Of a stretch of DNA of 41,465 nucleotides, positions 8,080-30,434 are shown one piece after another (the first letter of the stretch is position 1; every line of letters begins with the position of its first letter). This DNA comes from Pseudorhodoplanes sp. (GTDB lineage: Bacteria > Pseudomonadota > Alphaproteobacteria > Rhizobiales > Xanthobacteraceae): the NCBI GenBank assembly GCA_013388965.1, contig JACAEG010000116.1:1-41465 (forward strand). Reading direction: 5' to 3'. The translations under genes and the position numbers were made by a program. A model generated the notes under the pieces. It ran no database searches. It was not told the DNA's origin and was given only the letters and a program-made list of their open reading frames with translations.

Positions 8080-8155
8080 GGGCCCGTAGCTCAACGGTTA
8101 GAGCCGACCGCTCATAACGGTCTGGTTGCAGGTTCGAGTCCTGCCGGGCCCACCA
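8080..8155 (+). tRNA. tRNA with CAU anticodon, probably tRNA-Ile2 (lysidine type)
   Basis: A 76-nt cloverleaf. The acceptor arm is GGGCCCG/CGGGCCC with discriminator A and an encoded CCA. The D arm is GCTC/GAGC. The anticodon stem GACCG/CGGTC holds the loop CTCATAA, and the T arm is GCAGG TTCGAGT CCTGC. The CAU anticodon allows initiator Met, elongator Met or Ile2. Base pairs C4-G69 and C5-G68 are TilS-positive determinants, and the variable region TGGTTGC resembles E. coli tRNA-Ile2 more than its elongator tRNA-Met. The first acceptor pair is G-C, so it is not an initiator tRNA. Ile2 is preferred. Confidence 0.9.
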
Positions 8156-13451: not shown

Positions 13452-13532
13452 GGAATTGGGGGCGGAATGTCTCCGCCCCCCGGAATATCCGACCACGCCG
13501 AGACCATGCGGGGTGGCCCACCGAGACGGTTC

Positions 13533-15337: not shown

Positions 15338-15685
15338 TCACGGCGCGACATCGCTCAGGTCGATCCACAGTCCGTCGCCGATGACACGCACCGGATAGAT
15401 GCGAAGGGCTGGAAATGACCAGCCCGGCGATACCGCGCCGTCTTGCAGGTCGAACCATGCAGAATGACGCGGGCAGAAGAGGCTCCCTCCCGAACAGCGG
15501 CCGTGTGCCAGATCGGCGCCCTCATGCGGGCAGGCACGTTCCGCCGCAAAGAAGCGGTCCGCATCGCGGATGAGAATGACGTCCTGGCCGAGCAGGTTGA
15601 CCGCAACAATCGTTCGCCTGTCGAATGCCTCAAGACCGCAGGCATGGATCCAGCGCGCCGGCATATCGGTCGGGACAGCGGTCAT
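15338..15685 (-). CDS. Rieske [2Fe-2S] ferredoxin-type protein
   Basis: A 115-residue soluble protein with both Rieske cluster boxes: CPH (Cys52, His54) within ACPHEGADL and CPRH (Cys71, His74) within CPRHSAWFDL, followed by a proline-containing strand. The size and 16-residue box spacing fit the small ferredoxins that feed electrons to dioxygenases or that serve nitrite-reductase-type partners. No Rieske oxygenase alpha subunit is in the window. It starts on the ATG that shares its A with the TGA of the upstream ATPase gene (TGATG), so it is the last, translationally coupled gene of the transport operon. Its partner is unknown; the Fe(II) oxygenase in the same operon is a candidate only by neighbourhood. 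Confidence 0.9.
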   Translation of the reverse strand: MTAVPTDMPARWIHACGLEAFDRRTIVAVNLLGQDVILIRDADRFFAAERACPHEGADLAHGRCSGGSLFCPRHSAWFDLQDGAVSPGWSFPALRIYPVRVIGDGLWIDLSDVAP

Positions 15686-16389
15686 CAGCCGCCCAGATAG
15701 GCGCGGCGCACGTGTGCATCGTCGAGCATTTGATCGCCCGTCCCGGACTGCACCACCCGACCGGTTTCCAGCAGATAGCAGCGATCGCACATGTCCAGCG
15801 CCGCAAGCGCATTCTGCTCGACCATCAGCACGGTCGTTCCGTCGCGTCGGATGTCGTCGATAATCTCAAATATGATCTCGGTGATGTTGGGCGCCAGGCC
15901 GAGCGAGGGCTCGTCTAGCAGGATCATGCGGGGCCGCGACATCAGCGATCGCGCGATCGCAAGCATTTGCTGCTCTCCGCCGGACAAGGTGCCGGCCACC
16001 TGCATCACGCGCTCGCGCAGGCGAGGCAGCTTCACGAAGATGCGCTCCATGTCCGACCTGACGACGGCATGGTCGTGCCGCAGAAATGCTCCCATTTCGA
16101 GGTTTTCGCGCACGGTCAGCTGCGGTAAAACCCGCCGGCCCTCCGGGCAGTGCGCGATGCCGAGAGCGAGGATCTGCCGCGGCGTCGCTCCGCCGATCTT
16201 GCGGCCATCGAATGTGATCGTTCCGGCGGCGAGCGGCAGCATCCCGCTGATTGCCTTCAGCGTGGTGGTCTTGCCGGCGCCGTTGGCGCCGATCAGCGTG
16301 ACCAATTCGCCCTCGCCGACTGCGATCGAGACATCGCGCAGCGCCGTGACGGCGCCGTAGCAAACCGTGAGATTCTCAAGCTTTAGCAC
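15685..16389 (-). CDS. Branched-chain amino acid/amide-type ABC transporter ATPase (LivF-like)
   Basis: A 234-residue ATPase of the HAAT family, second nucleotide-binding subunit. Walker A GANGAGKTT (34-42), signature LSGGEQQ, Walker B MILLDEP and the switch-region VLMVEQN are all present. The early motif GIAHCPEGRRVLPQLTVREN is the LivF hallmark. It starts at GTG 16389 inside the end of the LivG-like gene (14-bp overlap), and its stop overlaps the Rieske start. It supplies ATP hydrolysis for import by the LivH/LivM-like pair. Confidence 0.95.
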   Translation of the reverse strand: MLKLENLTVCYGAVTALRDVSIAVGEGELVTLIGANGAGKTTTLKAISGMLPLAAGTITFDGRKIGGATPRQILALGIAHCPEGRRVLPQLTVRENLEMGAFLRHDHAVVRSDMERIFVKLPRLRERVMQVAGTLSGGEQQMLAIARSLMSRPRMILLDEPSLGLAPNITEIIFEIIDDIRRDGTTVLMVEQNALAALDMCDRCYLLETGRVVQSGTGDQMLDDAHVRRAYLGG

Positions 16390-17224
16390 GCTTCTTCAAT
16401 CCCGTTCCGAGATAGGCCTTGATGACTTCCGGATTGCTCTGAATCGCGGCAGGCGGTCCGGATGCGATGATGCGGCCCTGATTGAGGACAAACACCTTGT
16501 CGGAAACGCTCATCACCATATGCATGTTGTGCTCGACCAGAAGCACGGTCACGCCATCGTCGCGGATAAGGCGGACGAGCTCCTTGAACCGTTCGGTCTC
16601 CGACGGGTTGAGACCGGCAGCCGGCTCGTCGAGCAGCAGGAGCTTCGGCCGGGCGGCGAGAGCGATCGCAAGCCCCAGAAGCCGCTGTTCGCCATAGGCC
16701 AGGCTGCCGGCATTCTCCCCGGCGCGTCCCTGCAGCCCGACAAAATGCAGGACGTCGTCGACCTCGGCCCGCAGGCGCGCTTCCTCGCGCAGCGACGACG
16801 GCGTGCGAAAGATTGCGCCGAACAGCCCGCACCTGCCGCGCAGATGCATGGCGGTCAGGACGTTGTCCGCCACGCTGCAGCCTGCAAAGATGCTCGTGCG
16901 CTGAAACGTGCGCACGAGCCCAAGTGCTGCGATGTCGTCGGGCGTCATGCCGAGCAGATCGTGCCCCTCGAATCGCACCGATCCCGCGCTCGGCGTCATA
17001 TAGCCGGTGATGATATTGAAGGCGGTCGTCTTGCCTGCGCCGTTGGGGCCGATGAGGCTGACGATCTTGCCTTTGGGCACCGACAGGCTCATGCGTTCCA
17101 GAATCACCAGTCCGCCGATGTGAACGGCGAGGTCCGTGATTTCGAGCGCGGTCGGGGCGCCGTCCGGCAAGGCCGCGGAATCCATGCTTGCGGGTTCGAA
17201 AACGGTTGTCGCGGCGTTGGTCAT
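16376..17224 (-). CDS. Branched-chain amino acid/amide-type ABC transporter ATPase (LivG-like)
   Basis: A 282-residue ATPase of the HAAT family. Residues 1-28 are a low-complexity extension not found in all homologues. Walker A is GPNGAGKTT, followed by the LivG-type segment GLVRTFQRTSIFAGCSVADN, Walker B LLLLDEPAAGLNPSE, and VLLVEHNMHMVMSVSD. The signature motif is SLAYGEQR in place of LSGGQ, as usual for LivG. Its ATG forms a 4-bp ATGA overlap with the LivM-like stop, fixing the start at 17224; the ORF track extension to 17365 is an overlap artefact. Confidence 0.95.
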   Translation of the reverse strand: MTNAATTVFEPASMDSAALPDGAPTALEITDLAVHIGGLVILERMSLSVPKGKIVSLIGPNGAGKTTAFNIITGYMTPSAGSVRFEGHDLLGMTPDDIAALGLVRTFQRTSIFAGCSVADNVLTAMHLRGRCGLFGAIFRTPSSLREEARLRAEVDDVLHFVGLQGRAGENAGSLAYGEQRLLGLAIALAARPKLLLLDEPAAGLNPSETERFKELVRLIRDDGVTVLLVEHNMHMVMSVSDKVFVLNQGRIIASGPPAAIQSNPEVIKAYLGTGLKKRAKA

Positions 17225-18258
17225 GACAGCCGCGGCCTCAGATGCTCGGGCACCAGGCGAAGGCCGAGAGCCGCGAGGCGCTGCCATATCCTGGCCGCGG
17301 CGGGAACGATGCCGTTCGGGAGGAAAAAGACGATTAGAACGATCGCCGCGCCGTAGATGATCCATTGCACCTCCGGCCCGGCATAGTCGCGCAGCAATTC
17401 AGGCATGAGCCCGAAAAGGAGCCCGCCCACGATCGGACCCGTGAGCGTTCCCTTTCCGCCGGTTACCACCATGATGATCATGGTGACGGTATAGATGAAC
17501 ATGAACACGTCGGGATCGACGATCCGCACATAGTGCGTATAGAGCCCTCCCGACGCTCCGGCGATCCCGGCGGCGACCACCGTGGACAGCACGAGATAGT
17601 GCGTCACCTGGATGCCGACCGAGCGCGCGAGCCCCTCGTTTTCGCGCAGCGCGATGAGCGCGCGGCCCACCCGCGACCTGACAATGTGTGCGACGAGAAC
17701 GAAGGCGATCACGGCAACGGCGAGAACGAGCCAGTAGTTCTGCGCCTTGGTGGTGAGGGTTGTCACGCCAAGGCCCGGCAGCCACAGCGTGAAAGACGGG
17801 ATGTTGTTGATCGCCATCGGCCCTTCGGTGAGATCGACCCAGTTCAGCGCGATCAGTCGCATCACCTGCGCAAAGCTGACGGTGAGAATGACGAAATAGG
17901 CGCCGCGCACGCGGAAGGCGAGGCGTCCCACGAACCAGCCGAACAATGCGGCCATCAGGATGCCGGCCAGAAACGACAGCCAGACCGGCTTCGGCGCGAC
18001 GTCGAGCGTCAGTCCGAGGCCCAGATCGACGTCGAATCCGCGCGACAGCAACGCGCTGGTATACGCGCCGATGCCGAAGAAGGCGACGTGGCCAAGACTG
18101 AGCTGCCCGGTATAGCCCAGCAAGAGGTTGAGGCTGATGGCGGCGATGATGAAGATGCCGGCCAGGATCAGCAATCCCAGAATGTAGGGATCGCTCATCC
18201 AGAATGGCAGCGTGACGAATGCCAGGACGACAAGAAGGCTGAGGATCAGTCGGGTCAT
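17221..18258 (-). CDS. Branched-chain amino acid/amide-type ABC transporter permease (LivM-like)
   Basis: A 345-residue inner-membrane permease with about 9-10 hydrophobic segments. The conserved LLLGYTGQLSLGHVAFFGIGAY and the coupling-loop motif GRALIALRENEGLARSVGI are characteristic of LivM. It pairs with the LivH-like protein to form the channel. It overlaps the LivH-like stop by 4 bp (ATGA) and the LivG-like start by 4 bp, so the complex is translationally coupled. A short extension follows the last helix. Confidence 0.95.
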   Translation of the reverse strand: MTRLILSLLVVLAFVTLPFWMSDPYILGLLILAGIFIIAAISLNLLLGYTGQLSLGHVAFFGIGAYTSALLSRGFDVDLGLGLTLDVAPKPVWLSFLAGILMAALFGWFVGRLAFRVRGAYFVILTVSFAQVMRLIALNWVDLTEGPMAINNIPSFTLWLPGLGVTTLTTKAQNYWLVLAVAVIAFVLVAHIVRSRVGRALIALRENEGLARSVGIQVTHYLVLSTVVAAGIAGASGGLYTHYVRIVDPDVFMFIYTVTMIIMVVTGGKGTLTGPIVGGLLFGLMPELLRDYAGPEVQWIIYGAAIVLIVFFLPNGIVPAAARIWQRLAALGLRLVPEHLRPRLS

Positions 18259-19127
18259 CCCACCCGCTCCTTCGGCGCAAACAGGCCCTGCGGCCGCAGG
18301 ATGAGCACCGCGACGATGACGAGGAAGCTGAAGGCATCGCGAAAATCGGCTGAGACATAGCCGGAACCGAATTCCTCAACCAGCGCCAGGACAAATCCGC
18401 CGATGGTCGCACCCACCGTGCTGCCCAGTCCGCCCAGAATGACGATCGCGAATGCCTTCAGACTCGCAAGATCGCCCATGGTCGGGCTCACAAGAAAGAT
18501 CGGGCCGAGCAATGCACCCGCAACGGCGGCGAGGCCCGAACCGAGCGCGAAGGTCGCCATGTAGATCGTACCGACATTGACTCCCATCAGCGACGCGACA
18601 TCGCGGTCCTGGAAGGTCGATCGCATCGCGAGGCCAAGTCGGGTGTGATTGATCAGAAGGTGGAAGGCGATCAGCAGAACGATCGCAGTGACAAGCACGA
18701 AGACCTTCAGCGGCGATACCGAGACCGGGCCGAAGACCAGCGGCTGCTGCGCGAAGGGTGAGGGGATGAGCTTTGCGACTCCGCCCCAGATCAGCTGCTC
18801 GGTATTCTGCATGGCGATCCACAAGCCGATCATCAGCAGCATGACGGAATCGATGTCGGTGGTCTTGAGGCGGCGCAGGATGAAGAATTCGAGCGCCGCG
18901 CCGACGATCATGCCGATTGCGGTCGCAAGGAGGATGGCGGCGAAGAAATTGACGCCGAGCTGAGCCACGAAAAGATAGGCCATGTAGGCGCCGAGCGCGT
19001 AGAACTCACCATGCGTGAAATTCACGATCCGCATGATGCCGAATACCAGCGTCAGCCCGATGCCCAGCAGCGCGTATGTGCTGCCGAGCATGACGCCATT
19101 CATGACATGTTGAAGGAATTGATCCAC
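18255..19127 (-). CDS. Branched-chain amino acid/amide-type ABC transporter permease (LivH-like)
   Basis: A 290-residue inner-membrane permease with about eight helices. MNGVMLGSTYALLGIGLTLVFGIMRIVNFTHGEFY is the LivH-type N-terminal pattern, and AMRSTFQDRDVASLMGVNV is the cytoplasmic coupling loop that contacts an ATPase. The end GGLGSTVGATIGGFVLALVEEFG is also typical. It begins 97 bp after the binding-protein stop, with a strong hairpin in that gap, and is the first of four tightly overlapping transport genes. Confidence 0.95.
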   Translation of the reverse strand: MDQFLQHVMNGVMLGSTYALLGIGLTLVFGIMRIVNFTHGEFYALGAYMAYLFVAQLGVNFFAAILLATAIGMIVGAALEFFILRRLKTTDIDSVMLLMIGLWIAMQNTEQLIWGGVAKLIPSPFAQQPLVFGPVSVSPLKVFVLVTAIVLLIAFHLLINHTRLGLAMRSTFQDRDVASLMGVNVGTIYMATFALGSGLAAVAGALLGPIFLVSPTMGDLASLKAFAIVILGGLGSTVGATIGGFVLALVEEFGSGYVSADFRDAFSFLVIVAVLILRPQGLFAPKERVG

Positions 19128-19173
19128 GCTTCGTTTCCGTCCCGCGCCGTTTTGCTGTTGGGCGTGATTGGTG

Positions 19174-19200
19174 CCGGCCCGGCTTGCGGCGCCGGGCCGG
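19174..19200 (-). other. Intercistronic hairpin after the binding-protein gene
   Basis: CCGGCCCGGC and GCCGGGCCGG pair perfectly over 10 bp with a 7-base loop, in the 97-bp gap between the binding-protein stop and the permease start. No T tract follows on the minus strand, so it is more likely an mRNA 3'-end stabiliser or partial attenuator that keeps binding protein in excess over the membrane subunits. Confidence 0.55.
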
Positions 19201-19224
19201 AATGTCGACGGTCCGATCAGACGA

Positions 19225-20379
19225 TCACGGAAGCGGCATCGTCACCTTTCCCTGATTGAGGAGGACGATGTAGATATTCGGCTGGTTCTGGCCGCTCTCT
19301 GCGCCGGCAGGTCCCTCCTTGATGAAGGCAATGTCGCCGTTCACCGCCGGAAGCCTGGTCTTCCAGAGTGCTTCGCGCAGCGCTTCAGGCTCGGCCTTGC
19401 CTGCGATCTTGATCGCCTCGACGGCGGTGAGCACGGCATCGTAGCCCCGGAAGCCTTCGGTCAGGCCCGGAAATTCGAGTTTGCGCTTGGTCCATTCGTC
19501 GACATAGACCTTGGCGATGTCAGGGTACTTGGCCTTGTCGGGGAACCAGGGCGAGAAGAACAGCAGATGATAGCTCGACATCTCCTTCGGACCGGGATTG
19601 GCGATCAACTGATCGGGAAAGGAGCCGCCGGTCGTGATGATGCGCTGAGGCAGTTTCAGCTCGGCGGCCTGCTTCAGCGCCAGCGTCATCTGCTCGACAC
19701 CGGTGGTGATGAAAAGGGTATCGCCGCCTGACTGCTTGATCGCCGTGAGCTGCGCCGAAAGGTCGGTCGCGTCGGGCGTCATGAACTGAACCGAGCCGAT
19801 TTCCACGCCCTTCGTCTTCAGATATTTGCTGAACTCTTCGGCCGACCCGCGCCCCCAGTCGTTGTTGACCGACAGAAAGTCGATCTTCTTGATGCTGGGC
19901 TGGAAGCTGTCGTATTTGGCCAGAAAGGCCTTGGCTTCCATCTCCGAGGTCGGGCTGATGCGGAACACCCACGGATTGCCCGATGTCGTGATCTTGCCGG
20001 ACGACGAGGTCTCGACGATCAGGGGCACCTTGTATTCGATCAGCTTGGGCATGATCGCGAGCGTATACGTCGAACTCCAGGCGCCGATCAGCAACGGCAC
20101 CTTGTCGCGGAGGATCAGCTTTTCGACCGCATTCACGGCTTCCTTGGGGTTCGACTTGTTGTCCTCCAGGATCAACTCGAGTTTCTTGCCCAGAACGCCG
20201 CCATTCGCATTGATGACGTCCACCGCGATCTTGGCGCCATTGGCGACATAGTTGCCCGAGGCCGCCACCGGTCCGGTGAGCGGCTGGGTCATGCCGATCT
20301 TGATCGTCTCCTGCGCCTGCGCCGCGCTCGCGGTCAGGACTGCGGCGACTGCCGCCGTCGCCCACCTTAGCTTCTGCAT
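19225..20379 (-). CDS. ABC transporter periplasmic binding protein (LivK/AmiC-like, Peripla_BP_6)
   Basis: A 384-residue exported protein. The signal peptide ends SAAQAQ. The mature part begins ETIKIGMTQPLTGPVAASG, the usual start of type I periplasmic binding proteins for amino acids, amides and aromatic acids. The centre contains LLIGAWSSTYTLAIMPKL and IVETSSSG, forming the ligand cleft. The ATG at 20379 has AAGGAG seven bases upstream and starts the signal, so it is preferred to the ATG at 20400. It serves the LivHMGF-like transporter directly downstream. The ligand is not deducible from sequence; the surrounding catabolic genes suggest an amide, aromatic or N-containing compound. Confidence 0.92.
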   Translation of the reverse strand: MQKLRWATAAVAAVLTASAAQAQETIKIGMTQPLTGPVAASGNYVANGAKIAVDVINANGGVLGKKLELILEDNKSNPKEAVNAVEKLILRDKVPLLIGAWSSTYTLAIMPKLIEYKVPLIVETSSSGKITTSGNPWVFRISPTSEMEAKAFLAKYDSFQPSIKKIDFLSVNNDWGRGSAEEFSKYLKTKGVEIGSVQFMTPDATDLSAQLTAIKQSGGDTLFITTGVEQMTLALKQAAELKLPQRIITTGGSFPDQLIANPGPKEMSSYHLLFFSPWFPDKAKYPDIAKVYVDEWTKRKLEFPGLTEGFRGYDAVLTAVEAIKIAGKAEPEALREALWKTRLPAVNGDIAFIKEGPAGAESGQNQPNIYIVLLNQGKVTMPLP

Positions 20380-20401
20380 GAGTTTGCTCCTTGTGCTCAT
20401 A

Positions 20402-21382
20402 TCAGGCTGACTTCAGCCGGGTCTGCTGGTACTTCAGGTCGCGATATTCGCCGGACAGAACCGGCGGATATTTCGCCTTTCCGGGCGGCGCGATGCACTC
20501 GATCAGCGCGTCGTAATTCGGGTGGTGGAAGAAGGCGATCGACAGCCGCTTGCTGCGCGCCGCGACGCTGTCCGGCGGGTTGATCACGCGGTGCACGTTC
20601 GACACCCAGCGATCGTTGGTCCAGCGCATCAGGAGGTCGCCGATATTGACGACGAACGTATCCTGATCGGTCTCCACGTCGATCCAATCGCCGGAGCGGG
20701 TCTTTACCTGGAGGCCGCCGGGAACATTCTCGCCATTGAGGATGGTCAGCAGCCCGTAATCGGTATGGTCACCGGCGCGAAGCTGGCCAGGCTTTGGCGC
20801 CGAGGTCTGCTCCGGATAGTAATTGATGCGGATCGCCGTGATGTGCTTGTCGATCTTGTCCCGAAAGAACTGTTCCGGCAGATCCAGCGCCAGGGCGGTC
20901 AGCTCCATCATCGTCTCGGAGAGCTGTTCCATTGCCGTGTAGTACTGCTCCGCGGCCTCGCGGAGGCCGGCGGGATGCTGCGACCAGAGATTGGGAATGA
21001 AGTAGCGCGGTCCCTCGCCCTGGGTGTAGTAGGGTTCGTCGGGCCATCGCTCGCGTCCGAGATGGTAGTATTCCTTCAGATCGGCCGGAGTCGCGATTGC
21101 GTTGCCGGCCGAGAGCGCCTCGATTCCGAGCGCGCGATATCCGCGCGGCGTCTTGCCGTCGGGATGGGCGGCTTTTAGCTTTTCCTCGAGCGGCAGCGCG
21201 AAGAATGCGTTGGCCTTGTCGCGCAGCGTATTGATCAGGGAAAGCGGAACGCCGTGTCCCTTGATCGTGAAAAAGCCGATCTCGGTGCAGGTGCGGTCGA
21301 TCTGGGCGGCAACCGCACGCCTGTCGGCTGGCGAGCCCTTGAGCGCAGGCGCCAGGTCGATGACGGGAATGGTGATCGGCAT
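20402..21382 (-). CDS. Isopenicillin N synthase-like 2-oxoglutarate/Fe(II) oxygenase
   Basis: A 326-residue cytosolic non-heme iron oxygenase. N-terminal DIOX_N domain (IPVIDLAPALKG to about residue 120), then the double-stranded beta-helix with iron ligands His206 and Asp208 (HTDYG) and His264 (VHRV). RLS at 279-281 fits the RxS motif that holds 2-oxoglutarate or a substrate carboxylate. Family members hydroxylate, desaturate or cyclise small molecules; bacterial ones are largely uncharacterised. The ATG at 21382 has GGAG six bases before it; an alternative ATG at 21397 shares its A with the SDR stop (TAATG) but lacks a ribosome binding site. The gene sits between an SDR and a transporter, consistent with catabolism of the imported compound. 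Confidence 0.9.
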   Translation of the reverse strand: MPITIPVIDLAPALKGSPADRRAVAAQIDRTCTEIGFFTIKGHGVPLSLINTLRDKANAFFALPLEEKLKAAHPDGKTPRGYRALGIEALSAGNAIATPADLKEYYHLGRERWPDEPYYTQGEGPRYFIPNLWSQHPAGLREAAEQYYTAMEQLSETMMELTALALDLPEQFFRDKIDKHITAIRINYYPEQTSAPKPGQLRAGDHTDYGLLTILNGENVPGGLQVKTRSGDWIDVETDQDTFVVNIGDLLMRWTNDRWVSNVHRVINPPDSVAARSKRLSIAFFHHPNYDALIECIAPPGKAKYPPVLSGEYRDLKYQQTRLKSA

Positions 21383-21396
21383 CGGTATCTCCGGCA

Positions 21397-22191
21397 TTAG
21401 TGAAAATAGGCGCCGCCATCGACCACCAGCGTCTGGCCGGTGATGAAGGCCGCATCGGCGCTGGCGAAGAAGGCGACGGCGCCGACCAGATCGGCGGGCG
21501 TCATGGCGCGCGCGAGCACGCGGCCGCGGACGGACGGCTCCTTCGCACCTGCAACGAGTTCGGCATTGCGCTCGACATTGTCGCTCAGCGTGAATCCCGG
21601 TGCGACGCTGTTGACCAGAATGCCGCGCGGCCCGAGTTCCGTCGCCAGAGCGCGCGTCAACGACACCACCGCGCCCTTGCTTGCGACATAGTGTGCCATC
21701 AGCGGGTTGCCCTTGAATGCAACGCCCGATGAAATGTTGATGATGCGTCCCGATTTCTGCCGCTCGAAAATCGGGACGACGGCCTTGCAGCACTGAAACA
21801 GGCCGATGACATTGACATCCATGACCCTGCGGAATTCGACGGCATCGATCTGCTCGAATGGCTTCGGCCGCAGCGTCGAATAGATGCCTGCGTTGTTGAC
21901 CAGAATGTCCACGCGGCCGAAGGCGTCCTGCGAGGCGGCGACCATTGCCTTGACGTCTGCATCCAGCGATACGTCCGTTGCGACGCCGATTGCGCGATAT
22001 CCGCTGTCGACGAGACGTTGCGCGCCGGCTTCGGCGTTGCTCTGGTCGGCGATGACGATGGCCGCGCCCCGGGCCGCAAGGTCTGCCGCGACAGCATGAC
22101 CGATGCCGGCGGCGCCGCCGGTCACGATGGCGACCGCGCCTTCGAGGTTCGTGCCGTTGCCGGCTTTCGTGCCGTTCTGGCGTATGTCCAT
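21397..22191 (-). CDS. SDR family oxidoreductase
   Basis: A 264-residue classical short-chain dehydrogenase. It has TGGAAGIG for cofactor binding, NNAG, the catalytic Ser in NISSGVA, YVASK, and the ending ITGQTLVVDGGAYF. An Asp after strand 2 (IADQSN) favours NAD(H) over NADP(H). The reaction is presumably oxidation of an alcohol intermediate. The start is uncertain: the ATG at 22191 lacks a good ribosome binding site, while a TTG at 22209 sits directly against GGGAG. It is the first gene of the operon reaching to the Rieske gene, with a palindromic operator 72-87 bp upstream. Confidence 0.88.
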   Translation of the reverse strand: MDIRQNGTKAGNGTNLEGAVAIVTGGAAGIGHAVAADLAARGAAIVIADQSNAEAGAQRLVDSGYRAIGVATDVSLDADVKAMVAASQDAFGRVDILVNNAGIYSTLRPKPFEQIDAVEFRRVMDVNVIGLFQCCKAVVPIFERQKSGRIINISSGVAFKGNPLMAHYVASKGAVVSLTRALATELGPRGILVNSVAPGFTLSDNVERNAELVAGAKEPSVRGRVLARAMTPADLVGAVAFFASADAAFITGQTLVVDGGAYFH

Positions 22192-22262
22192 GAACTGGAA
22201 TATTTGCAACTCCCATGCCAGTTCGATGGGGCGCAGACCCCGGATTCATGGGCGTTCTAGCT

Positions 22263-22278
22263 CGTCAGTATGCTGACG
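22263..22278. promoter_or_regulatory. Palindromic operator, copy 1 (probable MarR site)
   Basis: CGTCAGTATGCTGACG, perfect 6-bp arms around TATG. It shares 23 bp of near-identical sequence (CTCGTCAGyATrCTGACGTGTTT) with the copy at 29972. It sits between the MarR gene and the SDR gene, upstream of the SDR-oxygenase-transporter operon. I see no convincing -35/-10 pair next to it. Confidence 0.75.
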
Positions 22279-22376
22279 TGTTTCGCCGGCGCGGCTTGCC
22301 TGATTGCGAAACGAGCAATTGTCGGCAAACTGGGCAGCAGGCTGAGCCGACCGGACTTGCGATGGATGCCAATCGC

Positions 22377-22862
22377 TCAGGTCAGGCGCAGCGGCGCGCG
22401 TCCGAAATCGTTGCCGGCGTCAACCAGGCGCGCCAGGGAACGCAGGAAGGCCTCACGCTCGTCCGGGGGCAGGGCCTCGATGGTTCTGATATGCGCGCGC
22501 CGTGCCGCCTGCGTCATTTGATCCAGCAGGCGCTTGCCGCGCGCGGTCAGAATGACGCGCTTCAATCGCCTGTCGGCTTTTGTCGTCGTGCGCCGCAACA
22601 GGCCGCGCGCTTCAAGGCGCGCGGCGACATTCGCCAGTGTCGTGCGGTCGACCCCGATTTCATAGGCGAGCCGCGCCTGCTCCAGCCCCGGCTGTTCGGC
22701 GACGGCGCTCATCATGCTGTACTGGACCGGCGTGACGTTGAATGCACTGCATTCCTCGATGAACAGGGCAGTGTGGATCTGGTGCAGCCGGCGGATCAAG
22801 AAGCCCGGGCGGCTGGCGAGATCGAATGTGGAGAGCCGCGGCGTGATCCGCTTATCGGACAT
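22377..22862 (-). CDS. MarR family transcriptional regulator
   Basis: A 161-residue winged-helix repressor. The HTH is DRTTLANVAARLEARGLLRR and the wing TKADRRLKRVILTARG carries the family's DxRxK-type pattern. Flanking helices form the dimer and effector region. MarR proteins usually leave palindromic operators when an aromatic or phenolic substrate binds. This gene is the last of the minus-strand operon that begins with the amidohydrolase, overlapping the preceding gene by 11 bp, and a palindrome of MarR type occurs in front of both adjacent operons. It is therefore the natural candidate to control both, including itself. The ATG at 22862 excludes a 14-residue extension predicted inside the preceding gene. 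Confidence 0.9.
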   Translation of the reverse strand: MSDKRITPRLSTFDLASRPGFLIRRLHQIHTALFIEECSAFNVTPVQYSMMSAVAEQPGLEQARLAYEIGVDRTTLANVAARLEARGLLRRTTTKADRRLKRVILTARGKRLLDQMTQAARRAHIRTIEALPPDEREAFLRSLARLVDAGNDFGRAPLRLT

Positions 22863-23970
22863 GGAAGCGGGATAGCAGGTCGCGCAACCATCGCCAAGCA
22901 ACATGCGAGATCAGGCCGCCGGCATGCAATGCGGCGCCGGCACCCGGCGTCTCCTCGCCGCGCAGACGCGCCTCGAGATTGCGTGCCACCATCGCCGCCA
23001 GCTCGGCGGCAAAGACCCGGACGATCGGGCCGCGGCCCAACTGCGCCAGCGGCCCCTTCAGCGCATATGTGAGATCGATCTCGACCGTGCTTGCGGCAGG
23101 ACCGTTCCCGACCAGGCGGAAGGTCGCCTCCGCCTGCATGCGCGTGCCGCTGGCCGTGTCGCGTCCCGATCCGGCGATCCGGCCCGTGCGCGCCATATCG
23201 TCGTAGGTCAGCGTGGCATCCCCCTTGAATCTTGCCTGGATCGGGCCAAGCGACGTCAGCATTTCACCCCGGATTCGGTCGCCGTCGCGGCTGGTGATCG
23301 TCGCGCCGGGCAGGCAACTCGCAATCAGTGCCGGATCACGGAGCGCCACCCAGACCTGCTCCGGGGGGAGGGCGATGCTCAGCGTCTCATGCAGGCCGTC
23401 GCCGGTGAACTTCGCGGAGATTTGCGCGGCCGGCGGCGCGGCTGCGTCATCGAGAGAAAACTGCCTGAAGGTTCCCCTGGTTACTGGGGGGAGCGACGGC
23501 GCGGTCACCTCCGGGCGATGGCTCAATACGCGGCGGATCGCGCGGACAATGCCGTTATAGCCAGTGCAGCGGCAGAGATTGCCTGCAAGTTCCAGCCGAA
23601 TGCGATCTTCGTCCGCATCGGGAAGCCGCAACACGATATCTCGCGCCGTCACCAGCATTCCCGGCGTGCAATAGCCGCATTGCAGTGCGTGCTCGGCGGA
23701 GAACGCCTCGCGCAACGCCGCCATCACCGGATCGCGCTCAAGGCCCTCGATGCTTTTCACGTCACGTCCCGCGCAGGTTGCCGCAAGCGTGATGCAGGAG
23801 CGCACCGGTTCTCCGTCGAGCAGGACCGTGCAGGCTCCGCACACGCCATGCTCGCAACCGATATGCGTTCCGGTCAGCAGCAGGTCCTCGCGCAGAAAGT
23901 CGGCAAGATGCGTCCGCGGAGCAACCTCGGCGCTGACGGCGAGGTCATTGACCTTGAGAGTGATGGTCAT
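22852..23970 (-). CDS. Molybdenum hydroxylase [2Fe-2S] subunit fused to a CoxG/SRPBCC domain
   Basis: A 372-residue fusion. Residues 1-155 form the CoxS-like iron-sulfur subunit: plant-type cluster Cys39, 44, 47 and 59 (CEHGVCGACTVLL), and the second cluster Cys98, 101, 133 and 135 (QCGYCTPGM, CRCTGY). Residues 175 to about 345 form a CoxG-like SRPBCC domain (KFTGDGLHETLSIALPPEQVWVAL, SLGPIQARFKGDATL). In carboxydotrophs CoxG is a separate membrane-recruitment protein, so here it could tether the enzyme at the inner membrane. The N-terminal half passes electrons from the Mo site to FAD. It overlaps the FAD-subunit gene by 4 bp. Confidence 0.92.
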   Translation of the reverse strand: MTITLKVNDLAVSAEVAPRTHLADFLREDLLLTGTHIGCEHGVCGACTVLLDGEPVRSCITLAATCAGRDVKSIEGLERDPVMAALREAFSAEHALQCGYCTPGMLVTARDIVLRLPDADEDRIRLELAGNLCRCTGYNGIVRAIRRVLSHRPEVTAPSLPPVTRGTFRQFSLDDAAAPPAAQISAKFTGDGLHETLSIALPPEQVWVALRDPALIASCLPGATITSRDGDRIRGEMLTSLGPIQARFKGDATLTYDDMARTGRIAGSGRDTASGTRMQAEATFRLVGNGPAASTVEIDLTYALKGPLAQLGRGPIVRVFAAELAAMVARNLEARLRGEETPGAGAALHAGGLISHVAWRWLRDLLSRFHVR

Positions 23971-24740
23971 GCCGCCTGCTCCATGGCGCGGCGCAGGGCT
24001 GCGAGCTGCATGATGCGGCCGATCTCATCGAGACCGCTCTGCAGCAGGGCGCGTTCGGCGCTTTCGATCCTGACGTCCGAGCCCTCCAGCACGATCGGGG
24101 CGCCGCCGACGGCGCCGATCACGGCCCTATGGATGTCGCGCGCCGGGTCAAGGAACACCGCCGCCATCGCGTGCGCGAATTCACCCGGTTTCCGACAGGC
24201 CTTGTAATAGCCCCAGCGTGCTTCCGGCGACGCCTTTGGAACACGCACCGCCTGCACGATCTCGCCAGGCTGCAGCGCATTGCGAAACGGGCCGAGCACG
24301 AATGTGGTGAGCGGAATGGTGCGGCCGCCGTCAGGCCTGAGCGTCAAAACCGCAGCGCCCAGCGCCGTCATTGTGCAGAGCCAGTCCGCCGCCGGATCGG
24401 CGTGGCAGAGGCTGCCGCCGATCGTGCCGCGGTTGCGCACCGCGCGATAGGCGATGCCCTGCGCGATCGCCGGCAGGATCCCCTTGCCGATATCCGGCAC
24501 ACGCCCGTCGGCAATCGCGGCATGGGTGACGCATGCGCCGATGATCACGGCGTCCTCGGTTTCCTCGACCAAGGAGAATTCACGGATCTGCGCGATCGAT
24601 ATGACATGCGAAGGCTGCGCGACCCGGAAGTTGAGCATTGGTCCGAGCGATTGTCCGCCAGCCACGATCCGGCCCTCGCCGGACTGCATCAGTTGCGCCA
24701 CGCTCACCGGCTGTTCAAGGGAAAAAACCGCCGGTTTCAT
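23967..24740 (-). CDS. Molybdenum hydroxylase FAD-binding subunit (CoxM type)
   Basis: A 257-residue medium subunit. The FAD-contacting loops AGGQSLGPMLNFR (27-39) and TIGGSLCHADPAAD (106-119) are intact, and the C-terminal CO_deh_flav_C domain occupies the last 90 residues. It receives electrons from the two [2Fe-2S] clusters and passes them to NAD or another acceptor. The length is slightly under the usual 270-290. Its neighbours overlap it by 4 bp on each side, so all three subunits are made in fixed ratio. Confidence 0.93.
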   Translation of the reverse strand: MKPAVFSLEQPVSVAQLMQSGEGRIVAGGQSLGPMLNFRVAQPSHVISIAQIREFSLVEETEDAVIIGACVTHAAIADGRVPDIGKGILPAIAQGIAYRAVRNRGTIGGSLCHADPAADWLCTMTALGAAVLTLRPDGGRTIPLTTFVLGPFRNALQPGEIVQAVRVPKASPEARWGYYKACRKPGEFAHAMAAVFLDPARDIHRAVIGAVGGAPIVLEGSDVRIESAERALLQSGLDEIGRIMQLAALRRAMEQAA

Positions 24741-27091
24741 GCCGACACCTTCAGACGCGAGGCGGCGAGCGCCTCCAGAACACGGTGCGGCGTGATCGGC
24801 AGCTGGTTGATCTCGGCGCCGAGAGGCCGCAGCGCGTCGTTCACGGCATTGGCGATAGCCGCCGGCGGCCCGATCGCCCCTCCCTCGCCGATCCCTTTCT
24901 GTCCGAAGGCGGTGTAGGGCGAGGGCGTTTGCATATGATCGATGCGCAGCATCGGCACTTCTGTGGCGCCCGGCAGCATGTAGTCGGCCAGTGTCGTCGC
25001 AAGCGGTTGTCCATGATCGTCGAACGGCATCTCCTCGTAGAGCGCCGTTCCGATGCCCTGTGCGACCCCGCCGCAGACCTGGCCGTCGACGATCATGGGA
25101 TTGATCAGGACGCCGCCGTCCTCGCAGAGGGCGTAGTCGAGAATTCTGACATCGCCCATCTCAGTGTCGACGGACACGACCACGGCATGGGCCGCATAGC
25201 TGAAGGTGCCGGTGTCGCGCACGGTCTTGTAGCCGCTGGTGACTTCCAGCCCGCCCGGATCAACATCCTTCGGCAATTCCTGCGGGCGCAGATACCAGGT
25301 GCGCGCAACCTCCTCGATGCGGACGCTGGCGACGCCGCTCGACACAAGTCCCTTTCCGACCTGCACATTCCCGGACGGCACCTGCAGCAAATGGGCGCCG
25401 ATGCGCGCGATGCGCTGGCCCAGTTCCCTGCATGCGGTCGCAACCGCGCCGCCGGCCATCACGATGCAGCGCGAGCCCCATGTGCCGGTCGAATAGGGTG
25501 TCACCGCCGTATCGCCATGAACGACGCGAATGCGCTCGACCGGAATGCCGAGCACTTCGTTTGCAATCTGCGCCAGCGTCGTTTCGAGGCCCTGGCCGTG
25601 CGACTGGATGCCGACCCGCAACTCCAGGCCGCCATCCGGCGTAAGCCGCGCGACCGCCTGTTCGAAGCCGGGGACCATCGGGATGCCCCAGCCGTAATAG
25701 ACCGACGTTCCGTGCGCACCCTGCTCGCAAAAGATCGAAAAGCCGACTCCGATCCGCACGGATGCGTCCGCTGAATCCTTCTGCTTCCTGCGAATGGCGG
25801 GCAGATCGATTGCCTCAACCACGCGGCGCAGACATTCCGGATAGTCGCCGCTGTCGAAATGCTTTTTCGTGATGTTGTCGAACGGCATGTCCTCGGGCTG
25901 AACCAGATTGCGCAGGCGAACCTCGTATGGCTCCTTGTTCACGGCATGGGCGATGGCGTCGATCATCGTTTCCATCGCATAGCAGACGCCCGCGCGCGCC
26001 ACGCCGCGATAGGGCACGAGGCCGGGCTTGTTCGTCGCCGAGGACCAGGTGATGCAGCGATAGGCATCGAACTTGTAGGGGCCCGGCAGGATGCTGGCGA
26101 CCTGCGCGGATTCCAGACAGGCCGAGAACGGGTAGATCGAATAGGCGCCGGTATCGACCGTGGCCGCCGCGTCCAGTGCGATCAGGCGGCCATCGCGGTC
26201 GGCATAGGCCATAATGTCATAATGATGTTCCCGGCAGTTGGCGTTGCCGGAGAGCTGCTCGCGCCGGTCCTCCAGCCAGCGCACCGGATAGCCGAGATGC
26301 CTCGCGAGGAAAGCCGCGCAGACCTCCTCCGACAGCAGCATCCCCTTGTAGCCGAAACCGCCGCCGACATCGGGCGCAACGATGCGCACATTCTCCTCCG
26401 ACACGCCAAGGCATCCGGCGAGGCCCGTGCGAATGATGTGCGGAATCTGGGTCGCCGTGTGCAGAACGATCTGGTCGAGCCGTCGGTCATAGAGGGCGAC
26501 GACGCCGCGGCCCTCGAGCGGGGACATGCATTGGCGGGCCGTGCGCAGGGTTCGGCGCACCACGACCGGCGCCGTCCTCCTGATCTCCGACAGGTCGGCT
26601 TCGACGCGGCTTTCCAGGAAGACGTTATCGCCCCAATGCTCATGCACGAGCGGTGCGCCGGGCATGCGCGCCGCCAGCATATCGACGACAGCGGGCAGCT
26701 CCTCGAAATCGACCTCCACCGCCGCTGCGAGATCCTCGGCCTCGGCGCGCGTTGCAGCCACGCAAGCCGCAATCGCTTCGCCGACATGGCGCACCTTGTC
26801 ATGCGCCAGGATCGGCTGGGCGGACGACTTGAATCCGGGCAAGCCTGAATTCGCGACAATCGGCTTCACGCCGATCAGATCGGCGGCCACGAACACGCGA
26901 TCCTCATGGCCGGCAGGCTTGCGGATATTTCCGATTCTCGCATGGGCCAGCGGACTGCGCACGAAGGCCAGCTCGCGCATGCCGGCGAGCCTGATATCGC
27001 CGACGTACTCGCCCTTGCCGCGCATATAGCGGTCGTCTTCCTTGCGACGAACCGAACGGCCGACGCCGTATCCTTCCGCGCCACCCTTCAT
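24737..27091 (-). CDS. Molybdenum hydroxylase catalytic subunit (xanthine dehydrogenase/CoxL superfamily)
   Basis: A 784-residue large subunit binding the Mo-pterin cytosine dinucleotide. It includes the aldehyde-oxidase a/b hammerhead domain (about 20-130), GGGFGYKG, the segment PYRGVARAGVCYAMETMID, the GQGLETTLAQIANEVLG motif and the catalytic glutamate in GIGEGGAIGPPAAIANAVNDA. The AYRCSFR active-site loop of true CO dehydrogenase is absent, so this is not a CODH. Such enzymes hydroxylate aromatic or N-heterocyclic carbons or aldehydes with water as oxygen donor. The ATG at 27091 overlaps the hydrolase stop by 4 bp. Given the neighbours, a heterocycle is the likelier substrate. Confidence 0.93.
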   Translation of the reverse strand: MKGGAEGYGVGRSVRRKEDDRYMRGKGEYVGDIRLAGMRELAFVRSPLAHARIGNIRKPAGHEDRVFVAADLIGVKPIVANSGLPGFKSSAQPILAHDKVRHVGEAIAACVAATRAEAEDLAAAVEVDFEELPAVVDMLAARMPGAPLVHEHWGDNVFLESRVEADLSEIRRTAPVVVRRTLRTARQCMSPLEGRGVVALYDRRLDQIVLHTATQIPHIIRTGLAGCLGVSEENVRIVAPDVGGGFGYKGMLLSEEVCAAFLARHLGYPVRWLEDRREQLSGNANCREHHYDIMAYADRDGRLIALDAAATVDTGAYSIYPFSACLESAQVASILPGPYKFDAYRCITWSSATNKPGLVPYRGVARAGVCYAMETMIDAIAHAVNKEPYEVRLRNLVQPEDMPFDNITKKHFDSGDYPECLRRVVEAIDLPAIRRKQKDSADASVRIGVGFSIFCEQGAHGTSVYYGWGIPMVPGFEQAVARLTPDGGLELRVGIQSHGQGLETTLAQIANEVLGIPVERIRVVHGDTAVTPYSTGTWGSRCIVMAGGAVATACRELGQRIARIGAHLLQVPSGNVQVGKGLVSSGVASVRIEEVARTWYLRPQELPKDVDPGGLEVTSGYKTVRDTGTFSYAAHAVVVSVDTEMGDVRILDYALCEDGGVLINPMIVDGQVCGGVAQGIGTALYEEMPFDDHGQPLATTLADYMLPGATEVPMLRIDHMQTPSPYTAFGQKGIGEGGAIGPPAAIANAVNDALRPLGAEINQLPITPHRVLEALAASRLKVSA

Positions 27092-27993
27092 CGCGCGGCC
27101 TTTCCGGTTCCGCCCCGAGCGGCGCAATGCGTCCTCGCCAGATCGAGCGCGGCCCGGGTCAACTCCCCTTCCGGATCGGTCAGATGATCGAGGATACTGA
27201 AATGGTTGGCCCGCACGATCGGCAGCAGCACGCCCGGTGCGTGCGCCATAGCCCGCAGCGCGTGCAGGTTTCGCGAATCGTTGACCAAGGCGGGGACCTC
27301 GGCGCTGCCGTATGCGATGGTCATGGGCTTCATGACCGCGGGCAGGTGCAACGGCGACAGACCCGCGATCTCGTCATCGGTCAGCCGAAGCGCCTGGTTC
27401 AGCTTCGTGTCGCGCAGCGCTTCGAGGTCATAGACACCGTAGATTGCGAGACCGGCCGCCACCAGCGGATGATCGAGCGTCATCGCCGTCAGATGGCCGC
27501 CGGCCGACCAGCCCGAGAGAATGACGGGACCCGAAATGCCGTGCCGGGGGCCTTCGGCCTGCAACCAGTCGAGCGCGGCGCGGATTTCCGACACGATATC
27601 GGGAAGGCGAGCTTCCGGCGCCAGCGTATAGCCGGGCAGGGCGGCGGACCAGCCATGCGCCTGCACGCCATTCATGAACATCGCGAAGTCCTCGCGCGTG
27701 TTGCGCTGCCAATAGCCGCCATGAATGAAGACGAGGCAGGGCGCCTCAGGGTTCTCGGCTGGATACAAGTCCCAGCGATTGCGCGCGCGCGGACCGTAGG
27801 GGATGTCGAGACCGGCCGGATGCGCCTTGCGATAGACGGCCGAGCCGGCATTGCGCCTTTCGATCAGGGCAGGGCTGTCGGCGACCGCCGCGTTGTTGTC
27901 ATAGGCGGCATCGCGCTCGGCCTGCGTCAGCGAGGCCCATCTTGCGCGCGGATCTTCGACAGCGACCGCGACGAAGGTCACGTTTTGCCTCAT
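27088..27993 (-). CDS. Alpha/beta hydrolase, kynurenine-formamidase-like
   Basis: A 301-residue cytosolic hydrolase. The oxyanion-hole motif HGGYW (91-95) is the one used by kynurenine formamidases, the nucleophile is Ser163 in GWSAGG, and His264 in ANHFS completes the triad with an aspartate or glutamate in the preceding loop. Formamidases split an N-formyl group from an aryl or alkyl amide, so a role in deformylation of an N-formyl intermediate is plausible. Esterase activity is the main alternative. It follows the DUF1989 gene by 4 bp and overlaps the Mo-hydroxylase large-subunit start. Confidence 0.85.
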   Translation of the reverse strand: MRQNVTFVAVAVEDPRARWASLTQAERDAAYDNNAAVADSPALIERRNAGSAVYRKAHPAGLDIPYGPRARNRWDLYPAENPEAPCLVFIHGGYWQRNTREDFAMFMNGVQAHGWSAALPGYTLAPEARLPDIVSEIRAALDWLQAEGPRHGISGPVILSGWSAGGHLTAMTLDHPLVAAGLAIYGVYDLEALRDTKLNQALRLTDDEIAGLSPLHLPAVMKPMTIAYGSAEVPALVNDSRNLHALRAMAHAPGVLLPIVRANHFSILDHLTDPEGELTRAALDLARTHCAARGGTGKAAR

Positions 27994-27997
27994 GGTT

Positions 27998-28624
27998 CTA
28001 GTGACCGCGCTGCCAGTGTATCAGCTGGATCGGCGTGGGCCTCCCGCCGCTGCAGGGATTGAGTTCCTGCGGACAGTTGGAGATGACGACGAGAACATCC
28101 TTCTCGGCGCGCAGATCGACGAAGTCGCCCGGCTTCGATAGTCCGTCGGCAATATGGATTTCCCCGTCGCCGCCGACCGGCACGTGCATGAAGAAGTTGA
28201 TATTCGGCGGGATATCTCGCCCATTCATGCCGAGCGTGCCGAGAGCCGCGAGGAAATTGTCCCGGCAGCTCCACTTTCCCGGCTGGCCATAGCGGACAAC
28301 ATTGATCTCGCGGCTGCAGCAGCCTGCGAGCGTGTCGTGACGGCCGACCGTGTCTTCGACCACTGTCATCATTGGCTGCGCGAGGTCGTCGTAAAGAACG
28401 ACACCCTTCGACACATAGACGCTCCCGGCGAGCTTGACCGTGTTTGGCGCATTGTAGCGCACATCGCTGCGGGCGGCGTCGAAGATGAGGGTATCGACCG
28501 CCTGGCAGCCTTCAAGGTCGACGATCCGAAGCGTCGTCCCGTGCGGGATTTTGCGATACCAATAGGCGCCGGCGGCGACGATTTCGTCGCTGACTATTCG
28601 GCCGGGAATCGCTCTGGCCAGCAT
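27998..28624 (-). CDS. DUF1989 family protein (urea carboxylase-associated type)
   Basis: A 208-residue soluble protein of the DUF1989/urea-amidolyase-associated family. The conserved core is seen in IPHGTTLRIVDLEGCQAVDTLIF, HDTLAGCCSREINVVRYG and NFFMHVPVGGDG, followed by PGDFVDLRAEKDVLVVISNCPQELNPC. In guanidine pathways paired members (CgdA/CgdB) deiminate carboxyguanidine; here only one paralogue is present and no carboxylase or allophanate hydrolase lies nearby, so its reaction is unknown. It may act on an amidine or amide produced by the neighbouring amidohydrolase. It lies 32 bp after the amidohydrolase gene. Confidence 0.9.
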   Translation of the reverse strand: MLARAIPGRIVSDEIVAAGAYWYRKIPHGTTLRIVDLEGCQAVDTLIFDAARSDVRYNAPNTVKLAGSVYVSKGVVLYDDLAQPMMTVVEDTVGRHDTLAGCCSREINVVRYGQPGKWSCRDNFLAALGTLGMNGRDIPPNINFFMHVPVGGDGEIHIADGLSKPGDFVDLRAEKDVLVVISNCPQELNPCSGGRPTPIQLIHWQRGH

Positions 28625-28656: not shown

Positions 28657-29934
28657 TCAGGCGGCCACGGCCTGCGGCAGGATGGGGGCGGTGGAGTCGA
28701 ACCGCTCGCCTGCGCGCAGGCAGAATGCAGGTTGAAGAAGGCGTTCGGCGACGACCTCGGTTTTCTCGTTGTCACGCAGCAGGAAGCGCCCGCGCAGGTC
28801 GGACAACACGCTCACATCGGCGATGCGCCCGGGCTGGAGCGACCCGAGTTCGTCGGAGCGGCCGAGCATCCTGGCCGGATTGGTGGTGACCATCGGCACC
28901 ACCTGCTCGAGCGTCAGACCAAGCGCCATCATCGAACTCATCGCCTGGGTCAGGCTGAACTTCGCCTGGCCCGCAAAGGGATGATTTTCGTCGTCGGGAT
29001 GCTCTCCGGGCGTCCCGGCCGGCGCCGGCACATGCGTGTTGTAACCATGCATGTCGGCGCCGAGCGTGTCCGGCACGATGCCGGCGTCGAGGGCCTTGCG
29101 CGCAATCCGATAGGAGAAATGGCTGCCATGGCCCACATCGACCTTCAGGCCGCGATCCAGCGCGGCCTGGATGACAGAGTGAACGTTCCCCTCGCGATCG
29201 ACAAAGCCGCCGGGGTGGCGCGTGAACGGATGCGCCAGGATATCGCCGGGCTGCAGCAGCGGGATCACGCGATGGATGATGGTATAGGCATCCTCGCCAT
29301 TCGCGCCGGATTCCGGCAGGCCCCAGAGTTGTCCGAAATGCACGTAAAGCGGCAATTTCGTCTGTCGGCCGATCTCGGCAGCCATCTTCATTACTTCGAT
29401 GCCCCAGCGCGCGAAGCCGCCGATCTCCGCATGCCCCTTGATGCCGCGCACGATGTCCTTGTTGGCATTGGCCGACCGAACTGTCGCGTCGATGTCGACG
29501 CCGTCCGGACTGTAGAGATTCGGGTAGAAATGGCCTTCCAGGCCGCCGACGAGGTAGGCGGACAGGAACGCCAGCACCCGCGTCTTGGCCGTGTCGGCGA
29601 CAAAATGCCGAAAGCCGGGCAGCGTCATGCAGGAGGGGCCGCCCTGATCGACGACCGTCGTGACGCCCGATTGCACGCCGACCATGTCGGCATCCATGCC
29701 GAACCGGCCGGTGACATACTTGTAGACATGGGCGTGGGTGTCGATAAGGCCGGGCAACACAAGCTTGCCCTTCGCATCGATCAGCGTTTTCGCCGAACTC
29801 GGAAGGATATCCTTCTGCACCGCAGCAATGCGACCGCCCCTGATCGCGACGTCCATCACACCGTTGATGTCCGACGCGGGACAGATCACATGCCCCCCGC
29901 TAATGACGATATCGAAGGGTGCGTTCTCGATCAT
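28657..29934 (-). CDS. Amidohydrolase/deacetylase family metallohydrolase
   Basis: A 425-residue TIM-barrel amidohydrolase. Metal ligands are visible as His67 and His69 (DTHAHVY), Lys166 (IKGHAE, probably carbamylated), His199 (YVHFGQ), His235 (AHPFTRHPG) and Asp294 (LGADMHG). It belongs to the Atu3266/EF_0837-like group near dihydroorotases, whose few characterised members split acyl esters or amides. It could open a cyclic amide or remove an acyl group. It is the first gene of the operon and is preceded by a sigma-54 promoter and the MarR-type palindrome. The ATG at 29934 begins at the usual beta-sandwich strand (FDIVISGGHVICP). Confidence 0.9.
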   Translation of the reverse strand: MIENAPFDIVISGGHVICPASDINGVMDVAIRGGRIAAVQKDILPSSAKTLIDAKGKLVLPGLIDTHAHVYKYVTGRFGMDADMVGVQSGVTTVVDQGGPSCMTLPGFRHFVADTAKTRVLAFLSAYLVGGLEGHFYPNLYSPDGVDIDATVRSANANKDIVRGIKGHAEIGGFARWGIEVMKMAAEIGRQTKLPLYVHFGQLWGLPESGANGEDAYTIIHRVIPLLQPGDILAHPFTRHPGGFVDREGNVHSVIQAALDRGLKVDVGHGSHFSYRIARKALDAGIVPDTLGADMHGYNTHVPAPAGTPGEHPDDENHPFAGQAKFSLTQAMSSMMALGLTLEQVVPMVTTNPARMLGRSDELGSLQPGRIADVSVLSDLRGRFLLRDNEKTEVVAERLLQPAFCLRAGERFDSTAPILPQAVAA

Positions 29935-29971
29935 GCGTGTGACCCCGGCTTGAGGCGGTTTTCCGCCAACT

Positions 29972-29987
29972 CGTCAGCATACTGACG
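29972..29987. promoter_or_regulatory. Palindromic operator, copy 2 (probable MarR site)
   Basis: CGTCAGCATACTGACG, perfect 6-bp arms, 38-53 bp before the amidohydrolase start. It is the complement-form of copy 1 and shares its flanks (CTCGTCAG...CTGACGTGTTT). It covers the expected transcription start of the sigma-54 promoter next to it, so occupancy should block transcription. Confidence 0.8.
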
Positions 29988-29992
29988 TGTTT

Positions 29993-30010
29993 TAGCAAGC
30001 CCCGTGCCAG
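29993..30010 (-). promoter_or_regulatory. Sigma-54 (RpoN) promoter for the amidohydrolase operon
   Basis: On the minus strand the bases read CTGGCACGGGGCTTGCTA. This matches the RpoN consensus TGGCACG-N4-TTGCW with the obligatory GG-N10-GC spacing. Transcription would begin around 29983, inside the palindrome, about 50 bp before the ATG. RpoN promoters need an enhancer-binding activator; none is encoded in the window. No sigma-70 promoter is evident nearby. Confidence 0.8.
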
Positions 30011-30303
30011 CCTATTGGTCCTCCAAAACCGAGCCTTTTCCGCATGAGTCGGCCGATCTGCCCGCCCGATAGGCAAGAGATGCGGCTTATGTCGGCATGC
30101 AACGGCGCACGCCGCCGGCCCCGGGACTCATCGCCCATAACCGTCCTCTTGGAACACCTCGGAAGGCGGCCGATCAATCTGGCAACCCGCCGGCAGATTG
30201 CGTGGCGCATCATCCCCGCAGCGCCCGGAATGTCGCGGCGATTGCGCGCATCGCAAATGCTGGCCGCGCAGCCATTCAGGTTGGTCTGCAGGACGCCTGA
30301 CCT
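30011..30303. other. Gap with no recognised gene, between divergent operons
   Basis: About 290 bp between the sigma-54 promoter (minus) and the dehydratase promoter (plus). Short ORFs in it look random. An enhancer for the sigma-54 activator would be expected here, roughly 80-200 bp upstream of the promoter, but I cannot point to a convincing repeat. Confidence 0.5.
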
Positions 30304-30331
30304 TGTTTCCCGACTATTTGAAGCTTAAAAA
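30304..30331 (+). promoter_or_regulatory. Promoter with 19-bp repeat, copy 1
   Basis: GACTATTTGAAGCTTAAAA (30312-30330) is repeated exactly at 32211-32229. It contains the imperfect palindrome TTTGAAGCTTAAA centred on AGCT. TTGTTT (30304-30309) and TAAAAA (30326-30331) could be -35 and -10 with a 16-bp spacer, so the repeat may be an operator lying over the promoter of the dehydratase gene. Confidence 0.5.
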
Positions 30332-30368
30332 TCTGGACGAGGCGTTTCAGGGCTGCGAGGAGATGTGC

Positions 30369-30434
30369 ATGCAGGCGTCCGATCTCAGGCACGGGGCGGG
30401 GCCGGCGACGCCGCAAGGGTGCAGAGGGGCGTGA
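30369..30434 (+). CDS. Possible 21-residue leader peptide ORF
   Basis: [27 protein letters not shown] lies six bases before its ATG, and its TGA overlaps the dehydratase GTG by 4 bp (GTGA). It may couple translation of the dehydratase. Alternatively the ribosome binding site serves the GTG at 30365, giving the dehydratase a 22-residue extension, and this ORF is not used. Confidence 0.3.

Follow-up and report, generated by a model that had tools for sequence, protein, structure and literature searches.

A conserved sigma-54 promoter element with a MarR-type operator over its predicted start ahead of an amidohydrolase/molybdenum hydroxylase operon

Gene content of the operon and its surroundings

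In the present study, a catabolic operon on the minus strand was analysed within a stretch of 41,465 nucleotides, called the window here, and its genes and control features are collected in Table 1. The gene order is identical in the same-genus genome G071, whose amidohydrolase is about 90% identical. An earlier reading made from the letters alone (the sequence-only reading) had placed an amidohydrolase/Mo-hydroxylase operon downstream of the promoter site, and this was borne out by the gene content. The divergent neighbour on the plus strand encodes an IlvD/EDD dehydratase and is followed by transporter genes. The open reading frame 20402-22249 was considered as a fusion and rejected, as it consists of the dioxygenase gene and a shadow over the SDR gene. 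Just past the operon end, a GntR/FCD regulator gene (13467-14234, plus strand) lies near TRAP and TctC-type transport genes. A search of the window for RNA families by Rfam found none besides a tRNA gene at 8080-8152 (plus strand).

Table 1. Coordinates of the operon genes and of the observed and putative control features in the window
Feature	Position	Strand	Remark
Block AAGCCGCATCTnTTGCCTAnnnnGCGGGCAG	30058..30088	minus	about -105..-75; pairwise alignment with G071, surrounding intergenic DNA not conserved; candidate activator site
Sigma-54 (-24/-12) promoter TGGCACGGGGCTTGCT	30009..29994	minus	exact consensus, conserved in relatives
MarR-type operator palindrome CACGTCAGTATGCTGACGAG	29989..29970	minus	centred at about +4 of the inferred start
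Amidohydrolase-superfamily gene (PRK09237 family)	28657..29934	minus	first gene of the operon
DUF1989/UAAP2-related gene	27998..28624	minus	253 bits, below the cut-off of 284.7
Alpha/beta hydrolase (HSL-type)	27088..27993	minus
Molybdenum hydroxylase large subunit	24737..27127	minus
Molybdenum hydroxylase FAD subunit	23967..24740	minus
Molybdenum hydroxylase 2Fe-2S subunit	22852..23970	minus	CoxG domain fused
MarR-family regulator gene	22377..22904	minus	PF01047; inside the operon
Second MarR operator copy CACGTCAGCATACTGACGAG	22280..22261	minus	between marR and the SDR gene; conserved in G071
Second sigma-54-like site TGGCATGGGAGTTGCA	22220..22205	minus	1 mismatch; identical in G071
SDR-family dehydrogenase gene	21397..22191	minus
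2OG-Fe(II) dioxygenase gene	20402..21397	minus	true start near 21397
Branched-chain-amino-acid-type ABC transporter	15685..20400	minus	binding protein, two permeases, two ATPases
Rieske ferredoxin-like gene	15338..15790	minus	operon end

The best hint of nitrogen metabolism in the operon is its DUF1989/UAAP2-family gene, though this scores below the curated cut-off. Members of this family have been shown elsewhere to be carboxyguanidine deiminases, going by the title of Schneider 2020 as cited in PMC12508155, which presumably refers to UAAP1/2. For the amidohydrolase, the nearest solved structures include 2ogj and 2ics. We take these to be Atu3266 and EF0837, respectively. Atu3266 is an ester deacetylase, and because it is among the relatives, it is not safe to call the window protein an amide hydrolase. 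Of the amide- and heterocycle-type hydrolases that the sequence-only reading had assigned to the operon, the amidohydrolase and molybdenum hydroxylase genes are indeed present, but the amide-hydrolase label is not secure.

The sigma-54 site and its conservation in relatives

The minus strand at 30010..29993 reads CTGGCACGGGGCTTGCTA, in which TGGCACGGGGCTTGCT agrees with TGGCACG-N4-TTGCW at 12 of 12 positions (0 mismatches). The GG of the -24 element lies at 30008-30007 and the GC of the -12 element at 29996-29995, which gives the GG-N10-GC arrangement. This is the only perfect match to the consensus in the whole window and stands 60 bp ahead of the amidohydrolase ATG at 29934; counted from the -12 C at 29995, transcription is predicted to start near 29983. 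A perfect match arises in 6 of 400 dinucleotide-shuffled windows, and genome-wide the pattern was found 30 times with no more than 1 mismatch (2 perfect matches), against 33 times for the reversed-pattern control, so that it is not enriched. The match by itself therefore makes a modest case for a promoter, which is suggestive and not proof, and it is the position of the site and its conservation in relatives that place the promoter call far above chance.

Amidohydrolase orthologues were taken from genome contigs and from 300 genomes of the family, 64 of which carry one, and the comparison set comprised 93 non-redundant upstream regions, including 50 from alphaproteobacteria. A GG-N10-GC site scoring at least 9 of 12 was found in 62 of the 93 regions, and TGGCA-N7-TGC was kept at a single invariant spacing in 40 of the 50 alphaproteobacterial ones, in which the flanks have diverged. 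In these 40 loci TGGCA and the -12 TGC are invariant, with the T, C, A and T positions, which were not used as selection criteria, 100% conserved; the spacer and flank columns mostly hold less than 0.5 bit, near background. GG-N10-GC survives in Cupriavidus, Paraburkholderia and Alloalcanivorax as well, and the betaproteobacterial and Alloalcanivorax sites have it in diverged form, e.g. CGGCACACTATTTGCG. The near-perfect RpoN promoter proposed earlier was accordingly confirmed as a conserved element, and the search for GG-N10-GC in orthologous loci that had been suggested with it gave a strongly positive answer.

Departures from this pattern were also seen. In L009, L010, L060 and L145 (Bradyrhizobium and related) the operator is kept and the -12 element has GG instead of GC, so these sigma-54 promoters are possibly weakened or lost. 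L148 carries MarR-type palindromes and a sigma-70-like TTGACA element in place of the sigma-54 site, suggesting an exchange of sigma factor under the same repressor, and in L150 and L151 an operator lies upstream of the amidohydrolase with no sigma-54 site. The lost -12 GC in the first four loci and the TTGACA of L148, all of them relatives with MarR, indicate that sigma-54 can be dispensed with.

Members of the Xanthobacter clade (L003, L004, L005, L006, L007, L011, L012 and others) have an FNR/FixK-type box (e.g. TTGATCTAAATCAA) at about -43..-30, which immediately precedes the sigma-54 site. It may perhaps be a third, oxygen-linked input.

The MarR operator, the proposed mechanism and its rivals

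The MarR palindrome pointed out by the sequence-only reading is real: it recurs as a second copy in the same operon, which also encodes a MarR-family protein. The palindrome had been flagged as a terminator on the plus strand, and this was rejected, as the motif is an operator present in more than one copy and does not lie at the end of any plus-strand gene. A palindrome core of MarR type was found in 40 of 40 promoter-bearing alphaproteobacterial loci. Counted from the -12 C, its centre lies 15.5 bp downstream in the window and 18.5, 19.5 or 20.5 bp downstream elsewhere, which corresponds to about +4 to +9. The operator sequence is CACGTCAGTATGCTGACGAG in the window and TACGAAGYATRCTTCGTA, present one to three times, in most other alphaproteobacteria; between the genus of the window and the other alphaproteobacteria the MarR proteins differ likewise. 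The marR gene lies within the operon in the window, whereas most relatives have it in divergent orientation to the amidohydrolase gene. A linked MarR-family gene was present in 67 of the 93 loci, and the promoter accompanied it in 58 of these 67, against 4 of the 26 without such a gene (Fisher p ~1e-10, with shared ancestry ignored). The genome of the window has two operator copies at up to 2 mismatches, both in this operon, and the CGAAG-type operator occurs in 50 of the 300 family genomes, nearly always at this promoter; so few copies, nearly all at one promoter, are as expected for a pathway-specific regulator.

The second operator stands 40 bp upstream of the second sigma-54-like site, at about -76 relative to it, and both are conserved in G071. 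This site precedes the SDR gene, and a transcript predicted from it would begin about 3 nt before the likely ATG (22191). A start so near the ATG is odd and not impossible, and a second promoter here is possible rather than certain. Between marR and the second operator there is also an inverted repeat, ATTGC-N7-GCAAT (22303-22319, minus strand), which is conserved in G071; relative to the start predicted for the second site, it lies at about -110 to -125.

We consider it probable that the catabolic operon has a genuine sigma-54 promoter, the start region of which is covered by the operator of its own MarR regulator, in the manner of an AND gate. In this mechanism, sigma-54 polymerase on the -24/-12 elements would stay closed until an AAA+ enhancer-binding protein remodels the closed complex, and melting or initiation would be blocked by a MarR dimer occupying about -6 to +14. 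A pathway metabolite would act as the ligand that frees MarR from the operator, and the enhancer-binding protein, perhaps NtrC, would supply the second, global signal. Since both an RpoN activator and relief from MarR would be needed, the promoter would combine a global signal with a specific inducer, and the operon is probably on only when the global signal is accompanied by the specific substrate. The double control envisaged by the sequence-only reading is supported in so far as the operator at the promoter and the linked MarR gene can tell.

The genome of the window encodes rpoN (Sigma54_DBD match) and four true enhancer-binding proteins with strong Sigma54_activat matches, namely NtrC (sharing 89% identity with its G071 counterpart), FlbD, an unassigned one of response-regulator type and one taken as NtrX because of its position, 3.8 kb away from ntrC. 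Judged by open-frame lengths and pairings, and for some by sequence as well, G071, G170 and G141 appear to have this core set too. No enhancer-binding protein gene was found within the operon or locus. The upstream sequences of the window and of most relatives showed no NtrC site (GCAC-N7-GTGC or looser), and no consistent consensus site for NtrC, NifA or IHF was found there. Use of the substrate as a nitrogen source, as had been supposed, is partly supported by the UAAP2-like gene and by sigma-54 itself; with the missing NtrC/NifA consensus and the lack of an activator gene in the operon, nitrogen control is no more than a possibility. At the PatzR promoter, NtrC can act without upstream sites. 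NtrC is the leading candidate for the activator of the promoter, and the conserved block AAGCCGCATCTnTTGCCTAnnnnGCGGGCAG is a candidate activator site.

Other explanations were weighed against the proposed gate. MarR could be an accessory or anti-activator that bends the DNA or blocks looping of the enhancer-binding protein, and does not stop initiation directly. This would suit the operator upstream of the second site in the window and the related palindromes of Alloalcanivorax and Cupriavidus, which lie farther upstream (about -110 and -160) and not over the start site; however, those of the beta- and gammaproteobacteria perhaps serve the divergent marR gene and its promoter, and each of the 40 alphaproteobacterial loci with the promoter has its operator over the start region, at a distance that hardly varies, so we regard the idea as unlikely. 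We give still less credence to a chance or vestigial motif in an operon driven by a MarR-repressed sigma-70 promoter. The absence of genome-wide enrichment and the relatives with an operator and no sigma-54 site (L148, L150 and L151) would fit such a reading, but no sigma-70-like site was found in region 29900-30420, and the core and spacing are invariant among the 40 non-redundant loci with divergent flanks. Finally, it is scarcely credible that TGGCA...TTGC is recognised by some other transcription factor and not by sigma-54, as the element is asymmetric, fits sigma-54 at each conserved position and keeps the N10 spacing, even if the Xanthobacter site comes directly after an FNR-type box and the first T of its -12 element is variable.

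Relation to known systems

To our knowledge, direct repression of sigma-54 promoters is uncommon, because these promoters are silent without an activator. RutR is a uracil-responsive repressor, a role to which the title of Shimada 2007, cited in PMC8743547, also points. In Escherichia coli, the catabolic operon rutABCDEFG serves nitrogen scavenging; it has an RpoN site, and rutR is encoded divergently (PMC8743547). It resembles the present operon as a catabolic operon in which an RpoN site is joined with a linked specific regulator, and the gate proposed here is likened to the AND gate expected for rut. RutR, however, belongs to the TetR family, whereas here the operator of a MarR-family protein is fixed over the inferred start and the catabolic genes are others. 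PatzR of Pseudomonas sp. ADP (AtzR/NtrC) is a sigma-N promoter without upstream activator sites, with NtrC as its activator and a bound specific regulator as its repressor. It shares with our locus a sigma-54 promoter under the repression of a specific regulator, but AtzR is of LysR type and represses its own gene, and here a MarR protein would act at the promoter of a catabolic operon. In ordinary MarR-repressed catabolic operons, too, the MarR gene is local, its product has few targets and a palindromic operator overlies the promoter; their promoters are sigma-70, in contrast to the sigma-54 promoter here. Dual control of this type is thus known from RutR/rut and AtzR/PatzR, and the well-conserved pairing of MarR with sigma-54 is new. 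Our literature search found no description of MarR over a sigma-54 start site, which is weak evidence of absence as subscription papers were outside its scope.

With its fixed geometry and its conservation across dozens of species, the pairing is a clean natural system for asking by what means a repressor can stop a sigma-54 polymerase which is perhaps already bound. The inducer of the operon and the global signal become directly testable, and a physiological role is indicated for an uncharacterised amidohydrolase/Mo-hydroxylase pathway. A wider reading, which we put forward tentatively and with more doubt than belief, is that sigma-54 promoters at which MarR gates the open-complex step itself form a widespread class; MarR, and not sigma-54, would be the constant part of the control, and L148, L150 and L151 would have retained the repressor and changed the sigma factor.

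In a record of Streptomyces sp. NBRC 109706 (L054), a 75% identical amidohydrolase was seen together with an alpha/beta hydrolase, which reflects either horizontal transfer or contamination.
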